Shown: piece by piece, positions 1-45,205 of the stretch
Layout of the letters: each line of letters opens with the position of its first letter
Numbering within the stretch: position 1 is the first letter of the stretch
Origin: Sulfurifustis variabilis
GTDB taxonomy: Bacteria > Pseudomonadota > Gammaproteobacteria > Acidiferrobacterales > Sulfurifustaceae
Direction: 5' to 3'
Assembly (NCBI RefSeq): GCF_002355415.1
Contig: NZ_AP014936.1
Span: 744,001-808,000 of the forward strand
DNA: 64,000 nt
Made by a program: the position numbers and the translations under genes
The notes under the pieces: generated by a model
Told to the model about the DNA's origin: nothing
The model's database searches: none
Seen by the model: only the letters and a program-made list of their open reading frames with translations

Positions 1-957
1 GGCGCGCTCTTCAAGGCGCTCGCTCCTCTTCCGCTCGCCTGCCTCGGGCTCGATGCCGGGCGCGAGGCGCTGCTCGCCGGCATGGGGCTGCGCAGCCTCG
101 CCGATTGCCTGCGGCTCCCGCGCGACGGTCTCGCCCGTCGGGTCGGCCCCGAGGTCCTGCTCGCGCTCGACCGCGCCTTCGGCCGGCTTCCCGATCCGCG
201 CGAGCCTTACGTGCCGCCCTCGCGCTTCAGCGCGCGCCTGCCGCTCCCTTCGCCGGTCGCGACGAGCGAGGCGCTGCTTTTCCCCCTCCGCCGTCTGCTG
301 CTCGAGCTGGCGGGCTTCCTCGAGGCGCGCGCCCTCGGCGCGCGGCGGCTCGATTTCGTGCTGCAGCACCATCGCTCGCGCGCCACCGGCATGACGTTCG
401 ATTTCGTCGCGCCCTCGCGCGACGCGCGGCACTGGCTCCTTCTCGTGCGCGAGCGGCTGGAGCGGCTCGAGCTCGGGGCGCCGATCGAGGAGATCGAGCT
501 GCGCGTGGAGAATCCGGAGGACCTCGGCTCCCGCAACCTCGATCTGCTCGCCGGTGAGCAGACCCCCGAGGAAGGCCGCGCGAGCATCGTCGAGCGGCTG
601 CAGGCGCGCCTCGGCCGGGATGCGGTGCGGGGGCTTGCCAGCTGCCCCGAGCACCGGCCCGAGCGGGCATGGCGCTACGGCGAGCCGGGCGAGGAGGGCA
701 GAGCCGCCGCCCGCGCACGGCGGCCGCTCTGGCTCCTGCCGGAACCGATTCCGCTCGAGATGCGCGAAGACGCGCCCTGGCTCGACGGCGCGCTCGCGCT
801 CGAGCCCGAGCCCGAGCGCATCGAGAGCGGCTGGTGGGACGGCCGTGACGTCGCGCGCGATTACTATGTCGCACGCGACGGCGGCGGGCGGCGGCTCTGG
901 GTGTTCCGGGAATTGCGGGCGCCGGGGAGATGGTTCCTGCAGGGCGTGTTCGGATAG
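1..957 (+). CDS. imuB: ImuB-like Y-family DNA polymerase homologue, 3' part
   Basis: The frame is open from base 1, so the N-terminal polymerase domain lies outside the window. The visible 318 residues begin in the helix-hairpin-helix and thumb region (GMGLRSLADCLRLPRD), continue into the little-finger-like region and end in the typical ImuB tail (CPEHRPERAW, then LWLLPEP and WWDGRDVARDYY near the end). ImuB is the inactive Y-family subunit that links DnaE2 to the beta clamp in SOS mutagenesis. In the usual imuA-imuB-dnaE2 cassette dnaE2 follows directly. Here it starts only at 17648, so the cassette has been split. The family assignment is firm; the state of the missing N-terminus is unknown. 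Confidence 0.88.
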   Translation, partial: GALFKALAPLPLACLGLDAGREALLAGMGLRSLADCLRLPRDGLARRVGPEVLLALDRAFGRLPDPREPYVPPSRFSARLPLPSPVATSEALLFPLRRLLLELAGFLEARALGARRLDFVLQHHRSRATGMTFDFVAPSRDARHWLLLVRERLERLELGAPIEEIELRVENPEDLGSRNLDLLAGEQTPEEGRASIVERLQARLGRDAVRGLASCPEHRPERAWRYGEPGEEGRAAARARRPLWLLPEPIPLEMREDAPWLDGALALEPEPERIESGWWDGRDVARDYYVARDGGGRRLWVFRELRAPGRWFLQGVFG

Positions 958-13637: not shown

Positions 13638-13727
13638 GTATAACGCAGAGTTGAGCGGCGCGGGCCGCCGGCATAACAGGAAACAATGTACCGTCTCACC
13701 GCGTCCGCCTCGAACGACGTGTTAGAC
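13638..13727 (-). other. attC site 3
   Basis: On the - strand this 90-bp site starts GTCTAAC and ends GTTATAC, with CACGTCGTTCGAGGCGGACGC on one arm answered by GCGCCGCTCAACTCTGCG on the other. Both end boxes are near-perfect. It overlaps the 3' end of the split cassette gene. Confidence 0.88.
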
Positions 13728-14063
13728 CTGTTTTTGTTTTTTTCTTTTTCATGCCCTTCTTTGCCTTAGCCCATGCTTTTGCTGCCAGTTGCTTGAGCCG
13801 CTTTTGCTCTTTTGGGTCCTTGGGTTTTCTTTCTTGCGGAGGAACCCCGGCCCGATCCGTGGCCTCAACAAGCCGGAAAGAAATTGTTTCCCCTTCCTTT
13901 ACGTCAGGAAGTTGCCAGAACCAGTCTTCGGTTCTATTTCCCGAAGTGACATGAGCTCGCATATATGTGCGCGGGACATTGGCGAGCATGACTGACCTGA
14001 GTCGCTAATTTGTAGCCATTCCGCCCGTGAGTCCCCATCATAACGCCCCAATGGGAGGACTCG

Positions 14064-14327
14064 ATGAAGAAGCGGCACAACGAAGAACAGATCATCCGCA
14101 TCCTGCGGGAGGCCGAGACGACCGGTGTGCAGATCCGCGAGCTCTGCCGGCGGCACAACATCACCGAGCAGACCTTTTTCCGCTGGCGCAACAAGTACGG
14201 CGGGATGGAGGTGTCGGAAGCCCGGCGGCTCAAGACCCTCGAGAGCGAGAATGCCAAGCTCAAGAAACTCGTGGCCGAGCAGCTCCTGGTCATCGAGGGA
14301 CTCAGGGAGTTCTCAGGAAAAAAATGA
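14064..14327 (+). CDS. IS3-family transposase OrfA
   Basis: The product is 87 aa with an N-terminal helix-turn-helix ([36 protein letters not shown]) and a leucine-zipper-like C-terminus ([20 protein letters not shown]). This is standard for OrfA of the IS407 group, which binds the terminal repeats. It ends in GGA AAA AAA TGA; the seven A residues (14318-14324) form a -1 slippery site feeding orfB. Confidence 0.93.
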
Positions 14328-15154
14328 CGTCCCCGGCCGGCCGGCGCGAGGCATTGGCGGCGCTTACGAGCCGGGGCGTCTCGAGCCGTGCCGCCTGCCG
14401 TTATCTCGGCTTCAGTCGCCGGGTGCCGCACTACGCGCTCCGGCAACCCGCCAAGGACCGGCTCCTGACGCAGGCGCTGCTCGTGAGCGCCCAGCAGCAT
14501 CCGCGCTTTGGTTATCGGCGCACGTCCGCCTGGCTCGATCTCGGGCTCTGGCGCGTCCGGCGCCTGTGGCGAGAGCTCAAGCTCGCCCTGCCGCGCCGGC
14601 GTCCGCGGCGACGGCGCTGCGGGACCGATATCCGCCTGCCCGGGGCGACCCGGCCGAACCACGTCTGGAGCTACGACTTCGTGCACGACCGCTTGGCGAG
14701 CCAGAAAGCCATACGGCTCCTCTGCGTGATCGACGAGCACACTCGGGAGTGCCTGGCAATCGAGGTAGCGCGCTCCCTCACCTCGCGCGATGTGATCCTG
14801 ACCCTCGGAAGACTCATGCGCCTCTACGGCAAGCCCGAGTTCATCCGCTCCGACCAGGGCGCGGAGTTCACCGCCACTGCCGTGATGCGCTGGCTGCGCG
14901 ATCAGAACGTCGGCCCGGCCTTCATCCCGCCGGGCAAGCCCTGGCGCAACGGCTTCGTGGAGAGCTTCAACGGGAAGCTCCGGGACGAGTGCTTGAACCG
15001 CGAATGGTTCCGGGATCTCGCGGAGGCGAGAACCGTGATCGAGAGCTGGCGCCAGTTCTACAACCACCGCCGCCCGCACAGTGCGCTCGGGTATCGGCCA
15101 CCGGCCGAGGTGCGCGCGGAGCAAGCTAAACTCGTGCTTGGACTCACAGGGTGA
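14324..15154 (+). CDS. IS3-family transposase OrfB (DDE integrase domain)
   Basis: The product is 276 aa, in the -1 frame relative to orfA. Its ATG overlaps the orfA stop (ATGA), so it can be made by frameshifting at A7 as an OrfAB fusion or by coupled restart. The rve-type DDE residues are visible in [21 protein letters not shown] and [16 protein letters not shown], and the C-terminal [16 protein letters not shown] is diagnostic. The gene appears intact. Confidence 0.95.
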
Positions 15155-15376
15155 GTGGCAACAAAAAAGCGACTCAGGTCAGTACGCCGAATTGCCGCTG
15201 TCCCACGCAGTAAAGGGTTCAATCTCAATTCTGTCGGATGATTTTCCGCACAATATTCTTAGAGCGGGGTCGCCATTGTCGGATATGGCTGCATCTGAAA
15301 GAGGCAGCAAGACGGCGACAGCTAGAGAGACGACTCGCAACGGGTTTCGTTTCGCCATGCGCTTAGTGTGGAAGCA

Positions 15377-15452: not shown

Positions 15453-15833
15453 CTACTGTGTCCTGTTAAGAACGCCCCAGGAACACATACGTTGCCCTGG
15501 CTCTTTGTCGAGTTCCGTGCGTTCGTGGCAAATTGTTACTTCGAGTTCAGTGGCACTCTTGAGCTTCATGATTAAGAAGGAGGCTGGACGACGAAGTGAG
15601 CATGGACGCGAAGGAGAGAGCTCGAGGTAGTCACCGTCTCCGTCTCTCTTAAATATGGAATACGGTACCTCTTTGCATTTCCCCCAGCTAAGTTTGTCGG
15701 AACTCACGTTAAGGTCACCGAATTCCCAGTAGCCTTTGGAATAGGGTGTCCAAGTGCCGATAAATGCACCGTCCTCCGACGCTTCAACGGTAAGGACACC
15801 GAAGACGATCAAGATAACCAGTAGTCTATGCAT
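15453..15833 (-). CDS. Cassette gene: secreted 126-aa protein, unknown
   Basis: The product begins with a signal peptide (MHRLLVILIVFGVLTVEAS) followed by a small beta-rich domain (DGAFIGTWTPYSKGYWEFGD, LSWGKCKEVPYSIFKRDGDG). Four cysteines in the mature part could form disulphides. The pattern resembles small lipocalin-like or stress-related periplasmic proteins, but I cannot assign a family. It lies directly before attC 2 and has lower GC than the chromosome, as is common for cassettes. Confidence 0.7.
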   Translation of the reverse strand: MHRLLVILIVFGVLTVEASEDGAFIGTWTPYSKGYWEFGDLNVSSDKLSWGKCKEVPYSIFKRDGDGDYLELSPSRPCSLRRPASFLIMKLKSATELEVTICHERTELDKEPGQRMCSWGVLNRTQ

Positions 15834-15846
15834 ATTGCTTCATGCA

Positions 15847-15936
15847 CCATAACGCGCTGCTGTGCCGCGCCGGCCACGGACACGGCAGGAAACATGGTGC
15901 GCGGTCCCCGGCGTCGGCACGAGCTGCTTGTTATGG
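15847..15936 (-). other. attC site 1 (first in array)
   Basis: On the - strand this 90-bp site begins CCATAAC and ends GTTATGG. AAGCAGCTCGTGCCGACGCC on one arm pairs with GGCGCGGCACAGCAGCGCG on the other. It is the best-preserved site of the array, as expected for the most recently gained cassette. Confidence 0.9.
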
Positions 15937-15937
15937 T

Positions 15938-16276
15938 TCATGGAAAACGAAGCAGCGCTTGCACCCGTCCCCACCATGTCGGTTTGTTCTTTCTTTGGTC
16001 GAGTGGGAGATAGACGTAAATCGTATTCACATCTATCTCCTCGCCATGTTCCCGCTTGATTGGCGGAGGTTCGATTGTTGGGTCCCAAGCGACCAACTTG
16101 ATAGGGTCCCCGTTGATTCCTCTCTTGGCCTCGATTCGCATCATGATGTCGGAATGCGATTCCATTGCCCCGGTTAGCCACGCGATACGTTCGTAGACTT
16201 TCCACACGAGGTAGGTGAAGAACGCGATGATGACCGTAAGAATGACCATTATCCAATTCGTCACGCACTCCTCCAT
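15938..16276 (-). CDS. Cassette gene (first position): single-span membrane protein, unknown
   Basis: The product is 112 aa with one N-terminal transmembrane segment (WIMVILTVIIAFFTYLVWKV). A soluble part follows (ERIAWLTGAMESHSDIMMRI, then VAWDPTIEPPPIKREHGEEI). No family is recognised. It is the attI-proximal cassette, so it would be the most strongly expressed if a Pc promoter lies in attI. Its stop codon lies two bases before attC 1. Confidence 0.7.
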   Translation of the reverse strand: MEECVTNWIMVILTVIIAFFTYLVWKVYERIAWLTGAMESHSDIMMRIEAKRGINGDPIKLVAWDPTIEPPPIKREHGEEIDVNTIYVYLPLDQRKNKPTWWGRVQALLRFP

Positions 16277-16295
16277 TTTGTTATTGCCTCATGAA

Positions 16296-16475
16296 CCATA
16301 ACGATAAATATACGGCCCATCCACAGGATATGGGTTATCCACTCAGGGCCAAGTGGGTGGGAAGGGCTTCATAAACATTCCGTTGCGGACCGGTTCTTGG
16401 GTCCTTTGCGAAGAAGTATATACGGCAGTTTGCCGGTATATCGGCCTTAACCCGCGATTTGCCCGGATAACAGTT
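16296..16475 (-). promoter_or_regulatory. attI recombination region of the integron
   Basis: The crossover box CCATAAC (+ strand, 16296-16302; GTTATGG on the - strand) joins the first cassette. Beyond it lie ATACGGCCCATC (16309-16320) and a near-perfect palindrome at 16419-16440 (TATACGGCA and TGCCGGTATA arms), then CGCGATTTGCCCGGATAACAG. The same blocks recur in the same order at 42556-42664. In known attI sites, extra integrase-binding repeats flank the core, which these could be. A Pc promoter for the cassettes is expected here but I cannot pinpoint it. Confidence 0.75.
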
Positions 16476-16559
16476 ATCCGGGACGTAATGGCGCGATTTT
16501 CCTTTGGCTGCAAGCCCTGCAATCGTCTGCCCCTTGGTTCTTGCGTCGGCGTTCGATAG

Positions 16560-16575
16560 CTGTATAAATATACAG
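16560..16575. promoter_or_regulatory. LexA (SOS) box upstream of intI
   Basis: CTGTATAAATATACAG is a perfect match to the LexA consensus CTGT-N8-ACAG and fully palindromic. It lies 42 bp before the intI start and contains a TATAAA that could serve as the -10 element. LexA control of integron integrases is well established for other integrons. Because dnaE2 starts 22 bp after intI, this box may control both. Confidence 0.92.
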
Positions 16576-16617
16576 TAAAGCAGCTAAAGGGAGACCATCC
16601 CAGGCAGGGGGTACTGA

Positions 16618-17625
16618 ATGGCAGGGTCCACGTCCGCGTCCGCGACACAGTCACCGCGGCTGCTCGAACAGTTGCGTGATGCCGTCCGGCGGCGCCACTA
16701 CAGCTATCGTACGGAAAAGGCCTATCTGCACTGGGCGCGTCGGTACATCCTGTTTCACCACAAGCGCCACCCGGCCGAGATGGGAGAACCCGAGGTGGGG
16801 ATGTTTTTGACCCATTTGGCCGTGGAGCGGCGAGTGTCCGCCTCGACTCAGAACCAGGCGCTCAACGCGATCCTGTTTCTCTACAAGCAGGTGCTGAACC
16901 GCGACATCGGTTTGATCGAGGGCGTAACGCGCGCCAAGCGCTCGCAGCACCTGCCGGCGGTGCTCTCGCGGGACGAGGTGCAGGCAGTGCTGACCCGGCT
17001 GTCAGGTCGGGCGTGGTTGATGGCGGGACTCATGTATGGAGCCGGTTTGCGCGTCACGGAGTGTCTGCGCCTCAGAATCAAAGATGTGGATTTCGGTTTC
17101 CGTCAGATTCTGGTGCGGGACGGCAAAGGCAAGAAGGACCGAGCGGTTCCCTTGCCGCAAGCGACGACAGCCGCGTTACGCCTGCAGATCGAAGCGGTCA
17201 GCCGCATCCATGCAGCAGATCTGGCGGATGGCTTCGGCGACGTCTCATTACCCTATGCCATCGATCGCAAGTATCCGAACGCCTCGCGGGAGCTGGGCTG
17301 GTGGTACTTGTTTCCCGCCTCGCATCGTAGTCGCGACCCTTACACCGGCCGGATAAAGCGACATCATCTAGATGAATCGGTGATCCAACGGGCGGTGAAA
17401 CGGGCTGTAGCGGCGGCGAACATTCGCAAACCCGTTTCGTGCCACGCGTTTCGTCATTCATTTGCCACACACTTGCTCGCTGGCGGGCAGGACATTCGCA
17501 CCATCCAGGAATTGCTGGGCCATAAGGATGTGAGCACGACGATGATTTACACCCATGTCCTCGGGGTAGGCGCGCGAGGTGTCGCGAGCCCGTTTGACAG
17601 TTTGTTTGTCGTGACGCAGGGCTGA
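16618..17625 (+). CDS. intI: Integron integrase (tyrosine recombinase IntI)
   Basis: The product is 335 aa. The catalytic set is intact: R145 (GAGLRVTECLRL), H276 and R279 (CHAFRHSFATHLL), H302 (LLGHKDVSTT) and Y311 (MIYTHV). The IntI-specific insert is present at about residues 201-235 (DVSLPYAIDRKYPNASRELG then WWYLFPA), which separates integron integrases from XerC/D. It recombines attC with attI and so captures and shuffles cassettes. GGGGG lies 6 bp before the ATG. The cassette array reads the opposite way, as is typical. Confidence 0.96.
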   Translation: MAGSTSASATQSPRLLEQLRDAVRRRHYSYRTEKAYLHWARRYILFHHKRHPAEMGEPEVGMFLTHLAVERRVSASTQNQALNAILFLYKQVLNRDIGLIEGVTRAKRSQHLPAVLSRDEVQAVLTRLSGRAWLMAGLMYGAGLRVTECLRLRIKDVDFGFRQILVRDGKGKKDRAVPLPQATTAALRLQIEAVSRIHAADLADGFGDVSLPYAIDRKYPNASRELGWWYLFPASHRSRDPYTGRIKRHHLDESVIQRAVKRAVAAANIRKPVSCHAFRHSFATHLLAGGQDIRTIQELLGHKDVSTTMIYTHVLGVGARGVASPFDSLFVVTQG

Positions 17626-17647
17626 TGCCGCACTCTAGGTTTGAATC

Positions 17648-20600
17648 ATGGCCGCTTCATCCGCCTACGCCGAGCTCCATTGTCTTTCCAACTTCAGCTT
17701 CCTGCGCGGAGCATCGCACCCGGAGGAGCTGGTCGCGCGGGCGAAGCAGCTCGGGTACTCGGCGCTCGCGCTGACGGACGAGTGCTCGCTCGCGGGGGTG
17801 GTGCGGGCACATCTGGCGGCGCGGGAGTATGAGCTTAAGTTACTTATCGGGGCGGAATTTCGGCTTTCTGAAGAACAAACTGTCATCCCCTCACCCCAAC
17901 CCTCTCCCGCTAAAGCGGGAGAGGGTGAATTATCGACGCCCTCACCCCAGCCCTCTCCCGGTATGGCGGGAGAGGGAGAAGAGCACTGGCGGCTCGTGCT
18001 GCTTGCGCCCGATCGGGCGGCGTACGGGGATCTTTCCGAGCTCATCACCCTCGGGCGGCGGTCGGCGGAGAAGGGGACGTATCGGCTGACGCGCGACGAC
18101 ATCGCAGCATACTCCGGGCGCTGCCTCGCGCTCTGGTTGCCCGGCGATCCGGCCGATCCACAGGAGCTCCAGTGGATGCGGGAGGTGTTCGGGGATCGCC
18201 TGTGGATCGCAGTCGAGCTGCTGCGCACCGGGCGCGACCGCGAGCGGCTCGCCGCGTTGCGCGGGCTGGGCGAACGCTACGGCGTGCCGCTCGTGGCGGC
18301 GGGCGGCGTGCAGATGCACGCGCGCAAGCGCCGGCGGCTGCACGATGTGCTCGCCGCGACGCGCCTCGGCACGACGGCCGCGCAGGCGGGGCTCGCGCTC
18401 GCGGGAAATGCCGAGCGGCGGCTGCGGCTCCGTTCCGAGCTCGCGGAGATCTACCCGGCGGAGCTCCTCGCGGAGACGCTGCGCGTCGCCGAGCGCTGCA
18501 CGTTCTCGCTCGACGAGCTGCGCTACGAGTACCCGGAGGAGCTCGTGCCCGCGGGCGAGACGCCGGCGAGTCATCTTCGCAAGCTCACCGAGGAGGGGCT
18601 GAAGCGGCGCTGGCCGGAAGGCGAGCCGGCCAAGGTGCGGGCGCTCGTCGAGCGCGAGCTGGCGCTCATCCGCGAGCTTTCCTACGAGCCGTACTTCCTC
18701 ACGGTGCACGACATCGTCCGCTACGCGCGTTCGAAGGGCATCCTCTGCCAGGGACGCGGGAGCGCGGCGAACTCGGCGGTCTGCTTCTGCCTCGGCATCA
18801 CCGAGGTCGACCCGGCGCGGATCGAGACGCTCTTCGAGCGCTTCATCTCCAAGGAGCGCAACGAGCCGCCCGACATCGACGTCGACTTCGAGCACGAGCG
18901 GCGCGAGGAGGTCATCCAGTACGTCTACGACAAGTACGGCCGCGACCGCGCGGCACTCGCGGCGACGGTGATCACCTACCGCATGAAGAGCGCCGTGCGC
19001 GACGCGGGCAAGGCGCTCGGCCTCACGCTCGAGCAGGTCGACCGGCTCGCGAAGAACTTCCAGTGGTGGGACTCTCCCTCACCCCCATCCCCTCTCCCCG
19101 ATCATTCAAGCCTCCCTCCAACTCCCCCTCTCCCGCAAAGCGGGGCGAGCCGGGGAAGTGCAAACGGTCCGGTGGACCGTTTGCCCGGCGAGCGGGCAGC
19201 CAAGGATGGTTGCCCTGGACTTTCCTGTGAAGCAGGAGGCGCAACAGGAAAGCGGCAAGGGGTGAGGGACCCTCATCCCCATCCCTTCTCCCAGAGGGAG
19301 AAGGGAGCGAGCCGAGCGCGCTCGACGCGCGATTCGGTTCACTCCGTGGGCGAGCCGTTGCGCGAAAAGCGCGCGCGCCTACCCTCACCCCCATCCCCTC
19401 TCCCGTCGGGGACGGGAGAGGGGGGCGAGCCGAGGCGCGAAAAGCACGCGCACTCTATATTATCGGAGCGCCTGCGCGAGGTCGGTTTCGATCCCGACAA
19501 CCCGCTCATGCGCCGTGTGCTCGAGCTCGCGCGCGAGCTTCTCGGGTTCCCGCGCCATCTCTCGCAGCACGTCGGCGGCTTCGTCATCTCGCGCGGCAAG
19601 CTCTCGCGCCTGGTGCCGATCGAGAACGCGGCGATGCCCGAGCGCACCGTGATCCAGTGGGACAAGGACGATCTCGACGCGCTCGGGCTGCTCAAGGTCG
19701 ACTGCCTCGCGCTCGGCATGCTGACCGCGATCAGGAAGAGCTTCGATCTGATCGCAGGCTACCGCGGCGAGCGGCTCACGATGGCGACCGTGCCGGCCGA
19801 GGACCCGGCGGTGTACGAGATGGCGAGCCACGGCGACACGGTCGGCGTGTTCCAGATCGAGTCGCGCGCGCAGATGGCGATGCTCCCGCGCCTTCGGCCC
19901 GCTTGCTTCTACGACCTCGTGATCGAGACGGCGATCGTGCGGCCGGGGCCGATCCAGGGAAACATGGTGCATCCGTACCTTCGCCGCCGGCAGGGACTGG
20001 AGCCGGTGAGCTATCCCTCCGAGGAGGTGCGCGGGGTGCTCGAACGCACGATGGGCGTGCCGATCTTCCAGGAGCAGGTGATCAAGCTCGCCATGGTCGC
20101 GGCCGGGTTCACGCCCGGGGAGGCGGACGGGCTGCGCCGCTCGATGGCGGCCTGGCGCCGCCGCGGCGGGCTCGAGCACTACGAGCGCCGGCTCATCGAG
20201 GGCATGCGCGCGCAGGGCTATCCCGAGGCGTTCGCGCGGCAGATCTACCAGCAGATTCTCGGTTTCGGCGAGTACGGCTTCCCGGAATGCGTCGTCGGCG
20301 AGACGCGGGTCGTCGACGCCGATACCGGGCGCTGGGTGACGATCGACGAGGCCATGCGCGGCGCGGCGCGCCTCGAGCACACGCTCGCCTGCGGCGCGGA
20401 CCTGCGTCTGGCCAGGCGCCGGGTCCGCGCCGTCGTTGCGAGCGGCGTTAAACCGGTATTTCGGCTCCGCACCGCCCTGGGCCATACGCTCGTGGCGAGC
20501 GCGGAGCACCCCTTCCTCACGGCGGGCGGCTGGCGCCCATTGAGCGAGTTGCGGGAGGGCGACCATGTTGCCGCGGCCCGAGGGTTGCCGTCATTGGGCC

Positions 20601-22789
20601 GCCGTCGCTGGCCGCGCCATCGGCTGGTCGTGCTCGCGGGCCTGATTGCCGAAGGAAATCTCTGCCATCCGAGCACGTTCTACTTCTATACCACCGATCC
20701 GCGGTACCGCGAGGAGTTCGTGCGCGCGGTCGAGCGGTTCCCGAACACCGAGGCGGTCGTCGAGCGTCATCGAAGCTGTTTCAGCGTGCGCGTGCGCCGG
20801 CGCGATCGGCGTCGTGTCAGTGGGGCGGTGCTCTGGGCGCAGCGGCTGGGAATCTGGGGTTGCGGTGCTCGCGAGAAGCGCCTGCCCGGGGAGGTTTTCG
20901 AGCTGTGCGAGGCCGACCTCGCCCTGCTGCTCGCCCGTCTGTGGGAAGGCGATGGCGGATTCTCGAAGGCAGGGCACGCCTCGTACGACACCGCCTCGCG
21001 CCGCCTGGCGGAGGAGGTGCAGCACCTGCTGCTGCGGCTGGGGATCGTCGCGCGCATCTATCGCCGCGTGCGCCCCTACCGTGGCCGCGAGGTCGAAAGC
21101 CATGTGGTGACGGTAACGGGAAGCGACGCCCTGCAGCGGTTCGCGCAACGCATCGCCCGGCGTTTCCTGAGCCCCGAGAAGCGCCGGCGGGCGGAGGCCG
21201 CGATCGCGGGTGGCCATGGGCGCATGTCGCGCGACGTCATTCCGGCCGACGTGCGGGAGATCATCCGCCGCGAGCGTGAGCGCCTCGGCCTCACCTGGAA
21301 CGCGATCGGCCTGATGACAGGCCTCGGCATGCGCGAAATCCAGGGGCGCACGGAAACCAAGATCGGCTTTCGCCGCTTCGTGATCGCGCGGCTCGCCACG
21401 TGCCTGGCCTCGCAGGAGCTCGCGTGCCTCGCCGCCTCGGACATCTATTGGGACCGGGTGGTGGCGATCGAGCCGCTCGGTCGCCATCCGACGTATGACC
21501 TGCAGATCGAGGGCGACCATAACTTCCTGGCCAACAATCTGGTCGTCCACAACTCCCACGCCGCCAGCTTCGCGCTACTTATATATGTCTCCGCCTGGCT
21601 CAAGCGCCACGAGCCGGCGGCCTTCCTGGCGGCGCTCCTTAATAGTCAGCCGATGGGGTTCTACGCGCCGGCCCAGCTCGTGCAGGACGCGCGCCGGCAC
21701 GGCGTCGAGGTGCGGCCGGTGGACGTGCGGTACAGCGGGTGGGATTGCACATTGGGTGAGCCGGAGCAGTCGCGGATGCACTTAACGTGCATCCCCGCCG
21801 GCGAACGCCCGGCCATGGGTGAGGCGGAGTTTTCGAGAAAGCCCGGTGGGCTTTCTCGCCGCCGAACGGCCATGCCACGGATGGCATGGCCTGGACTTGC
21901 AAGCGAAGCGGGACGCGGAGCGCTGCAAGGCCGGGCTGGGGTTAATCGAAGTGGAAGCGTATCGCCACGGATGGCAGGCACGGCGACAGCGGCGAATCCG
22001 ACTACTGCTGCCCTCACCCCTTCCCCTCTCCCGCAAGCGGGAGAGGGGGAGTCGATCGGGTTTTCTCATAAGTATCTCCAGCCGGCCGTTCGTCTCGGGC
22101 TGCGGCAGGTGAAGGGCCTGACCGAAGCCGGCGCGCGGCGCCTTGTCGCGGCAAGGGTGGAGGCGCCGTTCGCGAGCGTGGCCGATCTCGCCCGGCGCGC
22201 GGGACTCGACCGCCGCGATCTCGACGCGCTCGCGGCGGCGGGCGCGCTGCGCGCGCTCTCCGGGCACCGTCATCGCGCCCGCTGGGCTGTCGCGGGCGTC
22301 GAGCGGCCGCTGCCGCTGCTCGCCGGGGCCGAGATCGCGGAAGGCGTTCCGCTGCTCCGGCCGCCGACGGAGGCGGAGGATCTCGTCGCCGATTACGCGA
22401 GCCTTGGCCTCACGCTCGGGCGCCATCCGCTCGCGCTATTGCGCGGGGAGCTCCGGGCACGCTACCGCTGTCTCTCGGCCGCCGACCTGCGGGCCGTGCC
22501 GCACGGCCGCCGGGCACGCACCGCCGGGCTCGTCGTCTGCCGCCAGCACCCGAGCTCCGCGAGCGGAGTGATTTTCATTACCCTCGAGGACGAGACCGGC
22601 CAGACGAACCTCATCGTCTGGCCCGGCGTGGTCGAGCGCCAGCGGCGCGAGGTGCTGCATGCGCGCCTGCTCGTGGTCAGCGGCGAGGTCCAGCGCGAAG
22701 GTGAGGTGCTGCACCTCATCGCCGGCCGGCTGGAGGACCGCTCGGCCCTGCTCGGCGACCTGCTCGCGCGCTCCCGCGATTTCCACTGA
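17648..22789 (+). CDS. dnaE2: Error-prone DNA polymerase DnaE2 (ImuC) with intein and repeat insertions
   Basis: The frame encodes 1713 aa, against roughly 1050 for the family. The PHP domain opens at YAELHCLSNFSFLRGASHPE. The polymerase active-site aspartates are in PPDIDVDF (409-413). PQWW.. and QHVGGFVISRGKLSRLVPIE belong to the palm/fingers, and the OB fold is near the end. Extra length comes from an intein (881-1302) and three in-frame repeat insertions near residues 78-112, 475-602 and 1375-1473. Removing these leaves a normal-sized DnaE2. It starts 22 bp after intI on the same strand, probably under the same LexA box. It should perform SOS mutagenic bypass with ImuB if the insertions are tolerated. 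Confidence 0.92.
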   Translation: MAASSAYAELHCLSNFSFLRGASHPEELVARAKQLGYSALALTDECSLAGVVRAHLAAREYELKLLIGAEFRLSEEQTVIPSPQPSPAKAGEGELSTPSPQPSPGMAGEGEEHWRLVLLAPDRAAYGDLSELITLGRRSAEKGTYRLTRDDIAAYSGRCLALWLPGDPADPQELQWMREVFGDRLWIAVELLRTGRDRERLAALRGLGERYGVPLVAAGGVQMHARKRRRLHDVLAATRLGTTAAQAGLALAGNAERRLRLRSELAEIYPAELLAETLRVAERCTFSLDELRYEYPEELVPAGETPASHLRKLTEEGLKRRWPEGEPAKVRALVERELALIRELSYEPYFLTVHDIVRYARSKGILCQGRGSAANSAVCFCLGITEVDPARIETLFERFISKERNEPPDIDVDFEHERREEVIQYVYDKYGRDRAALAATVITYRMKSAVRDAGKALGLTLEQVDRLAKNFQWWDSPSPPSPLPDHSSLPPTPPLPQSGASRGSANGPVDRLPGERAAKDGCPGLSCEAGGATGKRQGVRDPHPHPFSQREKGASRARSTRDSVHSVGEPLREKRARLPSPPSPLPSGTGEGGEPRREKHAHSILSERLREVGFDPDNPLMRRVLELARELLGFPRHLSQHVGGFVISRGKLSRLVPIENAAMPERTVIQWDKDDLDALGLLKVDCLALGMLTAIRKSFDLIAGYRGERLTMATVPAEDPAVYEMASHGDTVGVFQIESRAQMAMLPRLRPACFYDLVIETAIVRPGPIQGNMVHPYLRRRQGLEPVSYPSEEVRGVLERTMGVPIFQEQVIKLAMVAAGFTPGEADGLRRSMAAWRRRGGLEHYERRLIEGMRAQGYPEAFARQIYQQILGFGEYGFPECVVGETRVVDADTGRWVTIDEAMRGAARLEHTLACGADLRLARRRVRAVVASGVKPVFRLRTALGHTLVASAEHPFLTAGGWRPLSELREGDHVAAARGLPSLGRRRWPRHRLVVLAGLIAEGNLCHPSTFYFYTTDPRYREEFVRAVERFPNTEAVVERHRSCFSVRVRRRDRRRVSGAVLWAQRLGIWGCGAREKRLPGEVFELCEADLALLLARLWEGDGGFSKAGHASYDTASRRLAEEVQHLLLRLGIVARIYRRVRPYRGREVESHVVTVTGSDALQRFAQRIARRFLSPEKRRRAEAAIAGGHGRMSRDVIPADVREIIRRERERLGLTWNAIGLMTGLGMREIQGRTETKIGFRRFVIARLATCLASQELACLAASDIYWDRVVAIEPLGRHPTYDLQIEGDHNFLANNLVVHNSHAASFALLIYVSAWLKRHEPAAFLAALLNSQPMGFYAPAQLVQDARRHGVEVRPVDVRYSGWDCTLGEPEQSRMHLTCIPAGERPAMGEAEFSRKPGGLSRRRTAMPRMAWPGLASEAGRGALQGRAGVNRSGSVSPRMAGTATAANPTTAALTPSPLPQAGEGESIGFSHKYLQPAVRLGLRQVKGLTEAGARRLVAARVEAPFASVADLARRAGLDRRDLDALAAAGALRALSGHRHRARWAVAGVERPLPLLAGAEIAEGVPLLRPPTEAEDLVADYASLGLTLGRHPLALLRGELRARYRCLSAADLRAVPHGRRARTAGLVVCRQHPSSASGVIFITLEDETGQTNLIVWPGVVERQRREVLHARLLVVSGEVQREGEVLHLIAGRLEDRSALLGDLLARSRDFH
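17879..17984 (+). repeat. In-frame dispersed repeat insertion 1 in dnaE2
   Basis: Two tandem copies of a palindromic unit (CTCACCCCAACCCTCTCCC, then its inverted arm GGGAGAGGG) are inserted without breaking the frame. They encode PSPQPSPAKAGEGE and PSPQPSPGMAGEGE. They lie between GAEFRLSEEQ and HWRLVLLAP, where ordinary DnaE2 has a short loop. Confidence 0.85.
19069..19448 (+). repeat. In-frame dispersed repeat insertion 2 in dnaE2
   Basis: About 127 codons of low-complexity sequence separate KNFQWWD from ILSERLREVGFD. They include three or more CTCACCCC...CTCTCCC type units (at about 19076, 19265 and 19380) and one complete copy of the two-hairpin repeat (19162-19247). Their combined length keeps the polymerase frame open. 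Confidence 0.85.
19162..19247 (+). repeat. Two-hairpin repeat R1 (inside dnaE2)
   Basis: Stem-loop 1 has arms AAACGGT and ACCGTTT around the loop CCGGTGG. After a linker ending GGCGAGCGG, stem-loop 2 has arms GGCAGCC and GGTTGCC around AAGGAT. A tail CTGGACTTTCC..GAAGCAGGAGGCG follows. Layout and loops match R2-R5 while stem bases differ in compensating pairs. Confidence 0.85.
20288..21553 (+). other. DnaE2 intein with LAGLIDADG homing endonuclease
   Basis: The 422-residue intein starts with Cys881 (CVVGETRVVDADTGRW, block A) and has a block B-like segment (VASAEHPFLTAGGWRPLSEL). Two endonuclease motifs follow (LAGLIAEGNL near 996 and LLARLWEGDGGF near 1094), then block F (HPTYDLQIEGDHNFLANNLV) and the final His-Asn. 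The next residue is Ser1303 of the extein (SHAASFA). It sits in the highly conserved FGEYGFPE/SHAASFA motif of the polymerase, a typical intein target. All splice-junction residues are intact, so self-splicing is likely. Confidence 0.93.
21772..22068 (+). repeat. In-frame dispersed repeat insertion 3 in dnaE2
   Basis: About 99 codons separate DCTLGEPEQS from YLQPAVRLGLRQVKGLTEAG, which are adjacent in ordinary DnaE2. The insert contains the two-hairpin repeat R2 and a CTCACCCCTTCCCCTCTCCC-type palindrome at about 22013-22055 encoding TPSPLPQAGEGE. The frame is maintained throughout. Confidence 0.85.
21835..21925 (+). repeat. Two-hairpin repeat R2 (inside dnaE2)
   Basis: Stem-loop 1 arms GAGAAAGC and GCTTTCTC enclose CCGGTGG. 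The linker is GCCGCCGAACGG. Stem-loop 2 arms CCATGCC and GGCATGG enclose ACGGAT. The tail reads CCTGGACTTGCAAGCGAAGC followed by GGGACGCGGAGCG. Confidence 0.87.
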
Positions 22790-23001
22790 CCCCCTGCCCG
22801 TCGGTCCTCGCCCCCGGCCCGTCGGACCTCGGTTGCTGGTTATCGACACCCCGCGGGAAAACCCTATAGACTCCTTGCCGCCTGAGGGGTTACCCCTCGG
22901 CTGCCGAGGGAAAAAAGAACAGCAAACGGGAACCGGCGGAGGCCGGTCACTGGGACTTCCGTTCCGCGGGCAGATGCCCGCCCAACCGAGAGGGCTCTCG
23001 T

Positions 23002-25857
23002 TTGCTGCGTCTCTACGCTCGGCTCTTGTGCTGTCTTGCGCTCTTCGCTCCCGCGGCCTTCGCGGGCCAGGCCGTCGATCTCGACGCGCCGCTTCCGGTC
23101 GACGAAACCATCCACTACCGCGTGCTGCCGAACGGCATGCGTTACTGGATCCGCCCGAACACGCCGCCCGCGGGCAAGGTGTCCATGTGGCTGCGCGTCG
23201 GTTCCGGCTCGCTCAACGAGTCCGACGAGCAGCGCGGCCTCGCGCACCTGCTCGAGCATCTCGCGTTCAACGGAAGCAAGAACTTCCCCGCCGGCACGCT
23301 CATCAAGCGCTTCGAGGCCGCCGGCCTCACCTTCGGCGCCCACCAGAACGCGACCACGGGTTTCCTCGACACGGTGTACAAGCTCACCGTGCCGAACAAC
23401 CCGGAGACCCTCGACCTCGGGCTGACGTATTTCTCCGACGTCGCCCACCGCCTGACGATCGACGAAAAGGAAGTCGAGCGCGAGCGCAACGTCGTCCTCG
23501 CGGAGCGCACCGCGCGCGACAACGCCGCGAGCCGCGCCTTCAACAAGCAGCTCCTCGCGCTCGTGCCGGGCTCGCGCTTCGGCGAGCGCATGCCGCTCGG
23601 CGATACCGAGACCATCGCCAGGGCCACGGCGGCGCAGCTGCGCGCGTACTACGAGAAGTGGTACCGCCCGGACAACACCGTCCTGCTCGTCGCCGGGGAC
23701 CTCGACGTCGAGGCGCTCGACAAGCTGGTCCGCAAGCATTTCTCGGACTGGCAGCCGGTCGCGTCCCCCGCGCCGAACCATGACCCCGGCATCAAGCCCT
23801 ATTCCGCCGACCGCGCCGAGGTGATCAGCGAGTACGGGCTGTTCAACGCCGATCTGAACGTCGCGCGGCTCGAACCGCCCCGCGACTTCCGCAACGCGCG
23901 CGGCTACCGCGAGTGGCTGGTCCACCGCATCGGCCGGCAGATCGTCAACGCGCGCCTGCGCGACCTGATCCTCGAGGGACGCACCCGCTTCGGCTCGGCC
24001 TGGGCGGCGGGCGACAGCTCGTTCGGCACCACGCTCGTCGAGGTCCACGCGCGCAGCGCGCCCGAGGACTGGAAGACCGCGCTGCGCGAGCTGCTGGTCG
24101 AGATCAAGCGGGCCCGCGTGCACGGCTTCGGCGACGCCGAGTTCGCCTACGCGCGCGACGTGATCCGCACCGAGGTCGAGGGCGACGCCTTCGAGGAGGC
24201 CGACACCGAGGCCCTGCGCTGGCTCAAGGTCATGGAGGCGGCCCTCGACGAGGGGCGCCGCCCGATGGGCGCAGGCCAGGAGCTCGCGCTGTTCCGGCGC
24301 CTGATGCCGACGATCACCCGCGCCGAGGTCGAGGCGGCCGCGGCCGCGCGCCACGCGCCGGAGCGGCGCACGTTCACGCTCGCGCTCCCGCGCTGGGACG
24401 GTCATCCGGCCCCGACGGCGGACGAGCTGCTCGCCATCGTGCGCGCGGCCGACGCCGAAACGGTGGCGCGCCTGCCCGACCGCCAGCGCGCGACGACGCT
24501 GCTCGCGAAGGATCCCGCGCCGGGCGCCGTCGCCGAGCGCTCGCACGACCCGGACCTCGACGTCGTTTCGGTCACCCTCGAAAACGGCGTGCGCGTGCAC
24601 GTGAGGCCGTTGAAGTACAAGAACGAGCAGGTGAGCGTGCGCATCACGCTGGCCGGCGGGCGCGTGGCGGAGACGCCGGCGAACCACGGCATCAGCGAGG
24701 TCGCCGCGCTGCCGTTCAAGGTGCCGTCGAGCGAGAGCCTCGGGTCGGTGGACCTGCGCCGCATCCTCGCGACGAAGCATTTCGAGCTCTCCGGCCGCGA
24801 CACGGCCGGCGGGATCGAGCTCGATCTCACGAGCCCGCGCCACGATCTCGAGGACGGCTTCCGTCTCGCGCACCTGCTGCTCACGCAGGCGCGCATCGAG
24901 CCGGCGGTGTTCGACATGTGGAAGCGCCAGGCCTCCGAGCGCCAGGCCAACCGCGAAGGGAGCGTCGACGCGCAGCTCAACGACCGCGTGGACGCGCTGC
25001 TGACCAGCAACGACGCGCGCTTCCAGGTGTTGACGCCGAAGGAGGTCGAGCGGCTGACGCTCGAGGCCGGGCAGGCCTGGCTCGACGGCATGCTCAGGCA
25101 TTCGCCCATCGAGGTCGCGATCGTCGGCGATCTCACCCACGAGCAGGCCGTTGCCCTCGCGGCTAAGTACCTCGGCTCCCTGCCCGAGCGCGGCTCGATC
25201 AAGAACGCCTACGCGCTCGCGCGCACGCTGAACGCGCCCGCCGGCCCGCATCAGGCCCTGGTCAAGGTGGACACGGCGACGCCCCGGGCGATGGTCTACG
25301 TCGGCTGGCGCGGGCCGGACTGGCAGGACGTGCACGACTGGCAGGTCCTCGACCTCGCCGGCCGCATCCTCTCGAGCCGGCTGCTCAAGGAGGTGCGGGA
25401 GCAGCGCGGCCTCGCCTACTCGCTGCGCGCGCGGGCTTCGGCCAACACGCTCTACCGCGGCAACGGGCGGTTCCGGGTGTCGTTCGCGACCGATCCGCTG
25501 AAGGCGGAGGAGGCCGCGGACGTGGTGCAGCGGGTCATCGACGAGTTCGTGACGAAGGGCCCGACGCCGGAGGAGCTGACGACCGCCCGCGAGCAGGCGA
25601 GCCTCAGCTTCCGCAGCGGCACGCGCGCGCCCGCGTTCTGGCTCGACGTGCTCGGCGACCTCGAGTACATGGGCGCCGACCTCACGTGGGTGAAGCGGTA
25701 CGTCGAGAACGTGGAGAAGTACACCCGCGAGGACCTCATCGTCGTGCTCAAGAAGTACATCCGCCCCGACCGGATGGTGCGCGTCATCGGCGCGCCGATG
25801 GAGCTGCCGAGCGCCGCGAACGAGCCGGCGCAGAACCCGGTCGCGACCATCAACTGA
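23002..25857 (+). CDS. Secreted M16-family zinc metallopeptidase (double-domain, PqqL-like)
   Basis: The product is 951 aa with a signal peptide (LLCCLALFAPAAFAGQA). The first M16 domain holds the inverted zinc motif HLLEH (82-86) and the downstream glutamate region (KEVERERNVVLAER). The second half is an inactive M16 domain from about residue 520 (VTLENGVRVHVRPLKYKNEQ). It probably degrades peptides in the periplasm. The start is a TTG at 23002 behind GAGAGGG, chosen because it gives a full signal peptide. Confidence 0.9.
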   Translation: MLRLYARLLCCLALFAPAAFAGQAVDLDAPLPVDETIHYRVLPNGMRYWIRPNTPPAGKVSMWLRVGSGSLNESDEQRGLAHLLEHLAFNGSKNFPAGTLIKRFEAAGLTFGAHQNATTGFLDTVYKLTVPNNPETLDLGLTYFSDVAHRLTIDEKEVERERNVVLAERTARDNAASRAFNKQLLALVPGSRFGERMPLGDTETIARATAAQLRAYYEKWYRPDNTVLLVAGDLDVEALDKLVRKHFSDWQPVASPAPNHDPGIKPYSADRAEVISEYGLFNADLNVARLEPPRDFRNARGYREWLVHRIGRQIVNARLRDLILEGRTRFGSAWAAGDSSFGTTLVEVHARSAPEDWKTALRELLVEIKRARVHGFGDAEFAYARDVIRTEVEGDAFEEADTEALRWLKVMEAALDEGRRPMGAGQELALFRRLMPTITRAEVEAAAAARHAPERRTFTLALPRWDGHPAPTADELLAIVRAADAETVARLPDRQRATTLLAKDPAPGAVAERSHDPDLDVVSVTLENGVRVHVRPLKYKNEQVSVRITLAGGRVAETPANHGISEVAALPFKVPSSESLGSVDLRRILATKHFELSGRDTAGGIELDLTSPRHDLEDGFRLAHLLLTQARIEPAVFDMWKRQASERQANREGSVDAQLNDRVDALLTSNDARFQVLTPKEVERLTLEAGQAWLDGMLRHSPIEVAIVGDLTHEQAVALAAKYLGSLPERGSIKNAYALARTLNAPAGPHQALVKVDTATPRAMVYVGWRGPDWQDVHDWQVLDLAGRILSSRLLKEVREQRGLAYSLRARASANTLYRGNGRFRVSFATDPLKAEEAADVVQRVIDEFVTKGPTPEELTTAREQASLSFRSGTRAPAFWLDVLGDLEYMGADLTWVKRYVENVEKYTREDLIVVLKKYIRPDRMVRVIGAPMELPSAANEPAQNPVATIN

Positions 25858-34776: not shown

Positions 34777-35131
34777 GGTGGGAAATTCTATCGGTAATGT
34801 ACGACGCTGTTCATGCCTTTGGCGCTAGTGTTCTCGTTTGGATCGGAGCCAATTAAGGGCTCGACCGCCCTCCGGGCGAATAGTCGAAGTACTAAATGTA
34901 CTTGTGGGTGGCTGACCCACGGCACCAAAAGAAAGGAAGTTATATACTTGACGTACCCTAGTCGCCGGGCCCAGAATCCGGGCGCGTGACAGGCCGGTTT
35001 TGGAAAGATGGTTTTTTGAGTGCAGAACTGCTTTACTGGTTTGGCGGGCACGCGCCGGAACAACTCATGGCCATACTCCGTATGGCAGCGCCTTTAACCG
35101 GGCGTGGGATCCTTGAGCCGGGGGCCCGCCC

Positions 35132-35914
35132 TTATTTCTTCTTGAAGATGCCGAGCAGTTTCGCCTGCTCTCCATTTAGAGCTTCTGGATTGGGTAGTAT
35201 CTTCAAGCCGTATCCGATGTATTTCCCCTTTCTGCTGTACGTCGTAGGCTTCAGTATCTCTGCGTACCGTGGCTCATAATCGCCATAGCGCGTTGGTTCT
35301 ACCGCCGCCGCAAAACCACTTGCAATACAGTCAGCCAATTGAAGCCCAGCGAGTTGAGTATGCGGCTTGGAATCTACTTCATCGATATCGATGACATTCC
35401 ATCGGATCGAAGTTTCGCACTGGGTCTTGAGAACAGTTAGGTATTCTCGGAACTTTTCGTAGGATAGACCAGACCGATTCGAGAATATGATCTTTACTCG
35501 CTTGGTATTCTCTCGGTTATCCTCATCGCACAGCCACGATACGCGCTCAACGAGGTGCCTGGCCAAATACCAATACAGCTTGCCTTTCTCGCCCGCAAAG
35601 GCAAGTTCCTTGGGAACAGTTTTTTTGTTTGACAGGACGGATATGGCCCGAATTGGAGCTTGTGAAACGACTCTACATGCTGCAATTTTCTGATGGTGAT
35701 CCAGATCACAGAAATGAACATGGCGCAGTTTCGTCTTTCCGATCTCTGCCAATATCGAATCGCGGTGCTTAACTAGTGAGAGATCGTTGGATTGGCGAAC
35801 TACGCAGCATCCAAGAGCAAGCCATTGACTCGACCCGTCTTGCTTTTTATCGCGAAATTTTTTGAGCCCGTCATCGCCAGACTCGTCAATGTAGGCAAGG
35901 AAGGTATGGCTCAT
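35132..35914 (-). CDS. DUF3800 protein (RNase H-like fold), transposon passenger
   Basis: The product is 260 aa and opens MSHTFLAYIDESGDDG, the acidic DUF3800 N-terminal motif. The C-terminal LAGLQLADCIASGFAAAVEP is the second conserved block. The family is predicted to adopt an RNase H-like nuclease fold and is often found on mobile elements and beside defence genes; no activity is established. The ATG at 35914 overlaps, on the opposite strand, the ATG of the small basic ORF. GC content is well below the chromosome. Confidence 0.85.
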   Translation of the reverse strand: MSHTFLAYIDESGDDGLKKFRDKKQDGSSQWLALGCCVVRQSNDLSLVKHRDSILAEIGKTKLRHVHFCDLDHHQKIAACRVVSQAPIRAISVLSNKKTVPKELAFAGEKGKLYWYLARHLVERVSWLCDEDNRENTKRVKIIFSNRSGLSYEKFREYLTVLKTQCETSIRWNVIDIDEVDSKPHTQLAGLQLADCIASGFAAAVEPTRYGDYEPRYAEILKPTTYSRKGKYIGYGLKILPNPEALNGEQAKLLGIFKKK

Positions 35915-45093: not shown

Positions 45094-45205
45094 TGCGTGG
45101 GCGCATCCGGCGGATCGTCAACGACTGTGCGGCGCAACAGCCGGTAGCTCGTCAAATTGCTTTCTTATGGTCCGTTATCCGTGCAGAAAGCTCTGCCTCA
45201 CGCAG

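Follow-up and report, generated by a model that had tools for sequence, protein, structure and literature searches.

The integron integrase gene intI of Sulfurifustis variabilis, a cultured sulfur-oxidising bacterium, is directly followed on the same strand by dnaE2, the gene for an error-prone DNA polymerase, and a perfect LexA box stands in front of the pair. We consider it likely that the two genes form one LexA-repressed transcription unit, and that this unit is one case of a recurrent wiring that places intI ahead of an SOS gene, either dnaE2 or lexA. The analysis concerns a 64-kb stretch of the S. variabilis genome (the window; the genome is coded G000), for which a first-pass annotation had proposed that intI and dnaE2 are controlled as one SOS unit. 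Comparison with relatives, which keep the gene order, the short gap and the lack of a second box, supports that proposal.

The arrangement itself is simple. A box at 16560-16575 precedes the intI start codon at 16618 by 42 bp, the intI stop codon ends at 17625, and dnaE2 starts at 17648, 22 bp further on, with all three elements on the forward strand, exactly as the first-pass annotation had described them. It had also stated that neither a terminator nor another LexA box separates the genes, and this holds: a scan allowing up to one mismatch found no box between intI and dnaE2 or elsewhere within the unit, and a terminator scan found no candidate in the gap. Folding of the junction RNA was not better than that of shuffled sequences (z 0.56). 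Family profile searches identify the products as an integron integrase (TIGR02249, 466 bits against a cut-off of 265) and an error-prone polymerase (NF004225, 1439 bits against 939). The box lies in the promoter region of intI, the position by which a LexA-controlled integrase is recognised. Its core, CTGT-N8-ACAG, is matched perfectly at two places in the window, the second (at 45125) with a GC-rich middle, and the full 16-mer is single-copy in the one-contig genome of 3,958,814 bases. Matches with one mismatch number 11 in the window, against 10.9 expected from shuffles, and because the count equals the expectation such loose boxes are uninformative there. The evidential weight is on the box in front of intI, which is perfect, AT-rich, correctly placed and conserved in relatives.

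The adjacency of intI and dnaE2 is not confined to S. variabilis, as it recurs in two further genomes of the same family (G002, G012) and in three of a second gammaproteobacterial family (G198, G310, G405). Within the family of S. variabilis (f1; 20 genomes including G000), the gene next to intI is dnaE2 in G000, G002 and G012, which represent three genera, and lexA in G004, G013 and G015. Upstream of intI, G000, G012, G013 and G004 carry a perfect box and G002 a box with a single mismatch; the G015 contig starts inside intI, so that this region is out of view. No box separates intI from its partner gene in these genomes. In G012 an in-frame internal deletion has removed about 185 codons of intI, the box is perfect, and dnaE2 starts 24 bases past the stop codon. 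Four other genomes with long IntI matches (G006, G007, G008, G017) have no dnaE2 or lexA partner in the flanks examined. Compared with its G002 ortholog, intI shows a nonsynonymous divergence (dN) of 0.21 and a saturated synonymous divergence (dS) of 2.2 (NG86), and low dN with saturated dS is found among G000, G002 and G013 alike; for dnaE2 the values against G002, taken from conserved blocks only, are 0.19 and 0.79.

The other genes of the mutagenesis set lie at a distance. G000 has a single LexA match and a single IMS (ImuB) match, both just left of the window in a lexA-imuA-imuB operon (L145), where ImuA was assigned from operon position and alignment to relatives. The lexA gene of this operon is preceded by the box CTGTATACATATACAG, which resembles the intI box, and together with DnaE2 (NF004225) the boxed operon makes up an imuA-imuB-dnaE2 mutasome set under LexA boxes. 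In the outgroups G008 (congeneric with G012), G020 and G026, lexA-imuA-imuB-dnaE2 is contiguous, so the placement of dnaE2 behind intI is probably derived. We also considered that an integron might have split a contiguous operon by inserting itself between imuB and dnaE2. The genes imuB and intI are on the same strand about 16 kb apart, and the scan found no attC site at the genes that come first behind imuB (by inspection lyase-like, methyltransferase-like and sigma-factor-like); insertion of the integron and relocation of dnaE2 are therefore not separable.

Coupling also occurs well beyond the family. A class-wide draw of 369 gammaproteobacterial genomes contained 138 with an IntI at E 1e-60 or better, and 145 intI loci were examined, taken among the matches listed and leaving out G390:C46, G227:C2 and G088:C86. 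At nine loci (8 of 144 without the window) from five family codes, intI is followed by lexA or dnaE2: by dnaE2 in G000, G198, G310 and G405, by lexA in G004 and G360, by lexA-imuA-imuB in G175, and by lexA-imuA in G199 and G311. Outside f1, lexA thus stands behind intI in three further families (G360; G175; G199 with G311), and in G175 the whole intI-lexA-imuA-imuB run lies behind a single box. The DnaE2 alignments of G198, G310 and G405 begin 27, 42 and 4 bases, respectively, past the end of the IntI alignment. If the next gene were random and two targets existed among 3000 genes, about 0.1 coupled loci would be expected; the Poisson probability is 2e-15 for nine loci, ignoring relatedness, and 6e-8 for five families. 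Boxes with up to one mismatch occur within 200 bases upstream of intI at all nine coupled loci, compared with 28 of 127 uncoupled ones (Fisher p 4e-6), and perfect boxes at 7 of 9 versus 18 of 127 (p 9e-5), nine loci with short upstream sequence being left out of both comparisons.

A set of 80 intI loci, kept from at least 573 relatives in GTDB, contains six where lexA follows directly and one followed by an S24/CI-like repressor gene. Pfam families of the next gene were scanned at 61 of 62 loci (without L108), 34 of 35 (without L204) and 66 of 66 in three sets, and S24 is the commonest family among the scanned GTDB next genes (7 of 61). A seventh and an eighth intI-lexA locus exist in the same genomes, L218 and L226, the latter with an in-frame internal deletion in intI. 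Seven of the integrases form one clade in a FastTree tree (support 97), that of L226 being too short for inclusion, and all eight linked LexAs, from Desulfobacterota, form one clade as well (SH-aLRT 99). The other seven are 50–76% identical to the L046 LexA, compared with 28–34% for five further LexAs of these genomes, and in G425 and G427 the linked LexA is the sole LexA match. A motif of its own accompanies the clade: GAACN4GTTC is present upstream of intI at 8 of 8 intI-lexA loci and at one of the 228 other intI loci scanned. Its form at all eight is GAACAAA(T/C)GTTC, and GAACAAATGTTC is the predicted intI-upstream site for the intI-linked LexA of Desulfobacterota; in L218 and L226 the motif lies, by inspection, between TTGACA and a -10-like sequence. 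Since the layout of open reading frames (ORFs) beyond lexA varies at the five loci where enough sequence follows it, intI-lexA looks like a two-gene unit. One of the five further LexAs, at L225 (G423), is also encoded directly behind a partial intI; it clusters with LexAs that have no intI link, and GAACN4GTTC is absent from the locus.

On a FastTree tree of 234 IntI sequences, the 19 coupled entries, which include two with lexA behind boxes of its own and one with the CI-like repressor, require 8 changes of the coupling trait, compared with 15–19 in 100 label shuffles; when L218 is scored as uncoupled, the remaining 18 require 9. The trait thus runs in lineages and has changed several times, a count that does not separate gains from losses.

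The lexA-linked integrons of f1 belong to genus g5, and their repressor differs from that of the host. The intI-linked LexAs of G004, G013 and G015 form one clade (SH-aLRT 100 in a quick tree) and group with mutasome LexAs. Among nine g5 genomes searched, a strong full-length match of this type (LexA2) was found in these three only, the negatives coming partly from incomplete genomes (G016, G017 and G019, 77–82% complete) and including G014 with a partial second match. A second LexA, LexA1, is present in all nine. At 12 of 13 LexA1 loci (nine from g5 and four from other f1 genera), GAAC-N7-GAAC or its complement occurs near the start of the LexA1 match; the G013 locus has no exact match. We take this spacing to be that of the alphaproteobacterial LexA motif. 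The integron lexA2 lies behind CTGT-N8-ACAG and the host lexA1 gene has GAAC-N7-GAAC, and from these differing motifs host and integron repressors of g5 appear to use different operators. The g5 integron thus seems to bring its own repressor. It is also the case that distinct integrases precede a near-identical repressor in this genus: IntI of G004 shares just 56–58% identity with its counterparts in G013, G002 and G000, and the G004 and G013 LexAs encoded behind intI are very similar.

Several observations count against the single-unit reading. Coupling is an exception, as 136 of the 145 gammaproteobacterial intI loci are uncoupled (three of them with less than 600 bases of downstream sequence), and intI may contain an internal promoter. 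The dnaE2 genes of G002 and G012 are cut by contig ends. In G175, dnaE2 is outside the intI unit, 6.7 kb behind intI and with its own box, and the lexA gene following intI in G199 and G311 has two boxes of its own. Finally, no box of the CTGT-N8-ACAG type was found upstream of recA in G000, G002, G004, G013, G175 and G360; recA of G198, G310 and G405 does carry one. From this absence, the regulon of the G000 LexA may be small.

Of the alternative explanations, promoter capture deserves most attention. An integron would have become fixed upstream of an SOS gene, the promoter of that gene would have been lost, and intI would persist as a tolerated leader, with no joint function. We hold this to be possible rather than probable. 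It would account for the retention of box and partner gene despite the internal intI deletions in G012 and in L226 of Desulfobacterota, and for most intI loci lacking the arrangement. Promoter capture alone leaves unexplained, however, why lexA and dnaE2 are partners more often than by chance and why a whole Desulfobacterota clade has intI-lexA, and the low dN of intI relative to its saturated dS among G000, G002 and G013 also counts against it.

That intI and dnaE2 are two units which lie close together incidentally, dnaE2 being transcribed from its own promoter within the 3' end region of intI, is in our view unlikely. A sigma-70 scan of 15500-23500 returned a single promoter-like site, at 22843, and missed the expected intI promoter too, so that this insensitive scan is weak evidence, and lexA in G199 and G311 illustrates that a gene behind intI may have its own boxes. 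On the other hand, no box is present inside intI or in the gap in G000, G002, G012, G004, G013 and G360, nor between intI and dnaE2 in G198, G310 and G405, and mutasome genes are described as persistently LexA-regulated in the accessible part of PMC3323433. It is very improbable that DnaE2 serves integron recombination by extending or resolving the single-stranded attC x attI junction: it would be co-produced with IntI, and integron reactions need a replicative resolution pathway according to the accessible part of PMC4792948, but 136 of 145 intI loci lack a linked SOS gene.

We therefore favour the single LexA-repressed unit. Gene order, boxes, recurrence, and the survival of box and partner beyond an internal deletion of intI suggest to us that cassette shuffling has been tied to the SOS switch recurrently. 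In S. variabilis, RecA-stimulated cleavage of LexA would free the promoter at 16560-16575, and a single message would then encode both the integrase that shuffles cassettes and the polymerase that makes errors. ImuA and ImuB would be supplied by the lexA-imuA-imuB operon, which has a box of its own and lies about 16 kb away. With lexA as the partner, the integrase message would also make its own repressor, a built-in limiter that would restore repression. LexA binding, induction, read-through transcription and any benefit of the coupling are what we infer from this layout.

We lean slightly towards a more general view, in which integrons of this kind constitute a self-regulating class that carries its own LexA on one message with the integrase and uses an operator which the host repressor need not recognise. 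Such integrons would be freed from the SOS motif of the host, and intI-dnaE2 would be a sister form that adds a mutagenic polymerase. If this is correct, integrons with a matching repressor would explain how control persists in other hosts, and in those carrying dnaE2 a single switch would govern both cassette shuffling and point mutation, in an organism that is in culture.

Features of the window, with positions counted from its first base
Feature	Position	Strand	Basis or remark
imuB, 3' part, last gene of lexA-imuA-imuB; operon start left of the window	1..957	+	genome matches
attC-like site with the core CCATAAC / GTTATGG, following the ORF of the first cassette	15847..15936	-	folding z -4.6 against shuffles
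First-cassette ORF, 112 amino acids, oriented away from intI	15938..16276	-	no Pfam match
LexA box CTGTATAAATATACAG	16560..16575	+	sequence; 42 bases 5' of the intI ATG; resembles the lexA box of this genome and the intI boxes of relatives
intI, integron integrase, 335 amino acids	16618..17625	+	TIGR02249, 466 bits; Pfam Phage_integrase and SAM-like domain
intI-dnaE2 gap, 22 bases	17626..17647	+	no LexA box, no terminator-like site
dnaE2, error-prone C-family DNA polymerase, 1713 codons	17648..22789	+	NF004225, 1439 bits; PDIDVDF and KVD segments present
REP-like palindromic repeats, in frame inside dnaE2	17888-17980, 19076-19404, 22010-22051		
In-frame intein in dnaE2, 422 codons, LAGLIDADG domain	20288..21553	+	Pfam Intein_splicing and LAGLIDADG_3

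The family cut-off passed by IntI and the attC site on the cassette side are as expected of a chromosomal integron (see the table). The strong attC site (-51.7 kcal/mol) is the only one on that side; two weaker candidates at 13638 and 15335 are similar to those in a 40-kb control (4 sites, best -44.6). Also on the cassette side, inverted repeats of 44 bases (13991-15183), which are 84% complementary and separated by 1.1 kb, perhaps mark an insertion element. Elsewhere in the window, a DUF3800-VII RNA was identified at 35043-35135 (78 bits, cut-off 36). A second intI of the genome (L154, G000:C1:2985773-2986636) is 59% identical to the first and has no LexA box in the upstream stretch that was scanned.

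The dnaE2 ORF reaches 1713 codons because an intein and REP-like repeats are inserted in frame, and its reading frame is intact despite these inserts. The intein, which starts with Cys and terminates with HN before Ser, lies between GFPE and SHAASFA, a site that the DnaE2 alignments of G002 and G008 cross uninterrupted, without an intein. If its splicing were conditional, DnaE2 would gain a second switch. A 44% relative occurs in the dnaE of the Competibacter locus L108; this dnaE, 1.3 kb after intI, is of the replicative kind, and the locus was not counted as coupled. Other repair genes are also found next to intI, namely endonuclease III (3 of 61 GTDB next genes; L032, L036, L064), UvrD (3 of 66, at three loci among L231-L329) and a RecG wedge domain (2 of 34, L199 being RecG-type), all of them excluded from the counts of SOS coupling.

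Three known systems are reminiscent of the arrangement described here, one of them at rulAB, an SOS mutagenesis locus. Integron-like elements insert into rulB (PMC4542609, as far as accessible) and so resemble our case in being integrase-bearing elements at such a locus, but they insert into the gene, whereas here the SOS gene behind intI is intact and the two have one LexA box in common. The second is the imuA-imuB-dnaE2 mutagenesis cassette, which is LexA-regulated and either contiguous or split (accessible parts of PMC3919608 and PMC3323433). The DnaE2 family, the presence of ImuA and ImuB in the genome, the LexA boxes and the split form are common to both; the difference is that here an integron integrase gene stands ahead of the split-off dnaE2. 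The third is the LexA control of chromosomal and mobile integron integrases, the upkeep of which has been tied to a compatible host lexA gene (PMC3108266). As there, a beta/gamma-type LexA box precedes intI. That account, to the extent of its accessible text, has control rely on the compatible host lexA and makes no mention of an SOS gene within the intI unit, and its main text lacks the words operon, polymerase and dnaE; here, dnaE2 or lexA follows intI, and in g5 and Desulfobacterota the repressor gene accompanies the integrase. The first-pass annotation had called the intI-dnaE2 fusion a non-standard arrangement, which agrees with the open-licence literature searched, where, in its accessible parts, no description of intI coupled with dnaE2 or lexA was found. 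LexA control of intI and LexA control of imuA-imuB-dnaE2 were known separately, and what appears to be new is the coupling of intI with dnaE2 or lexA.

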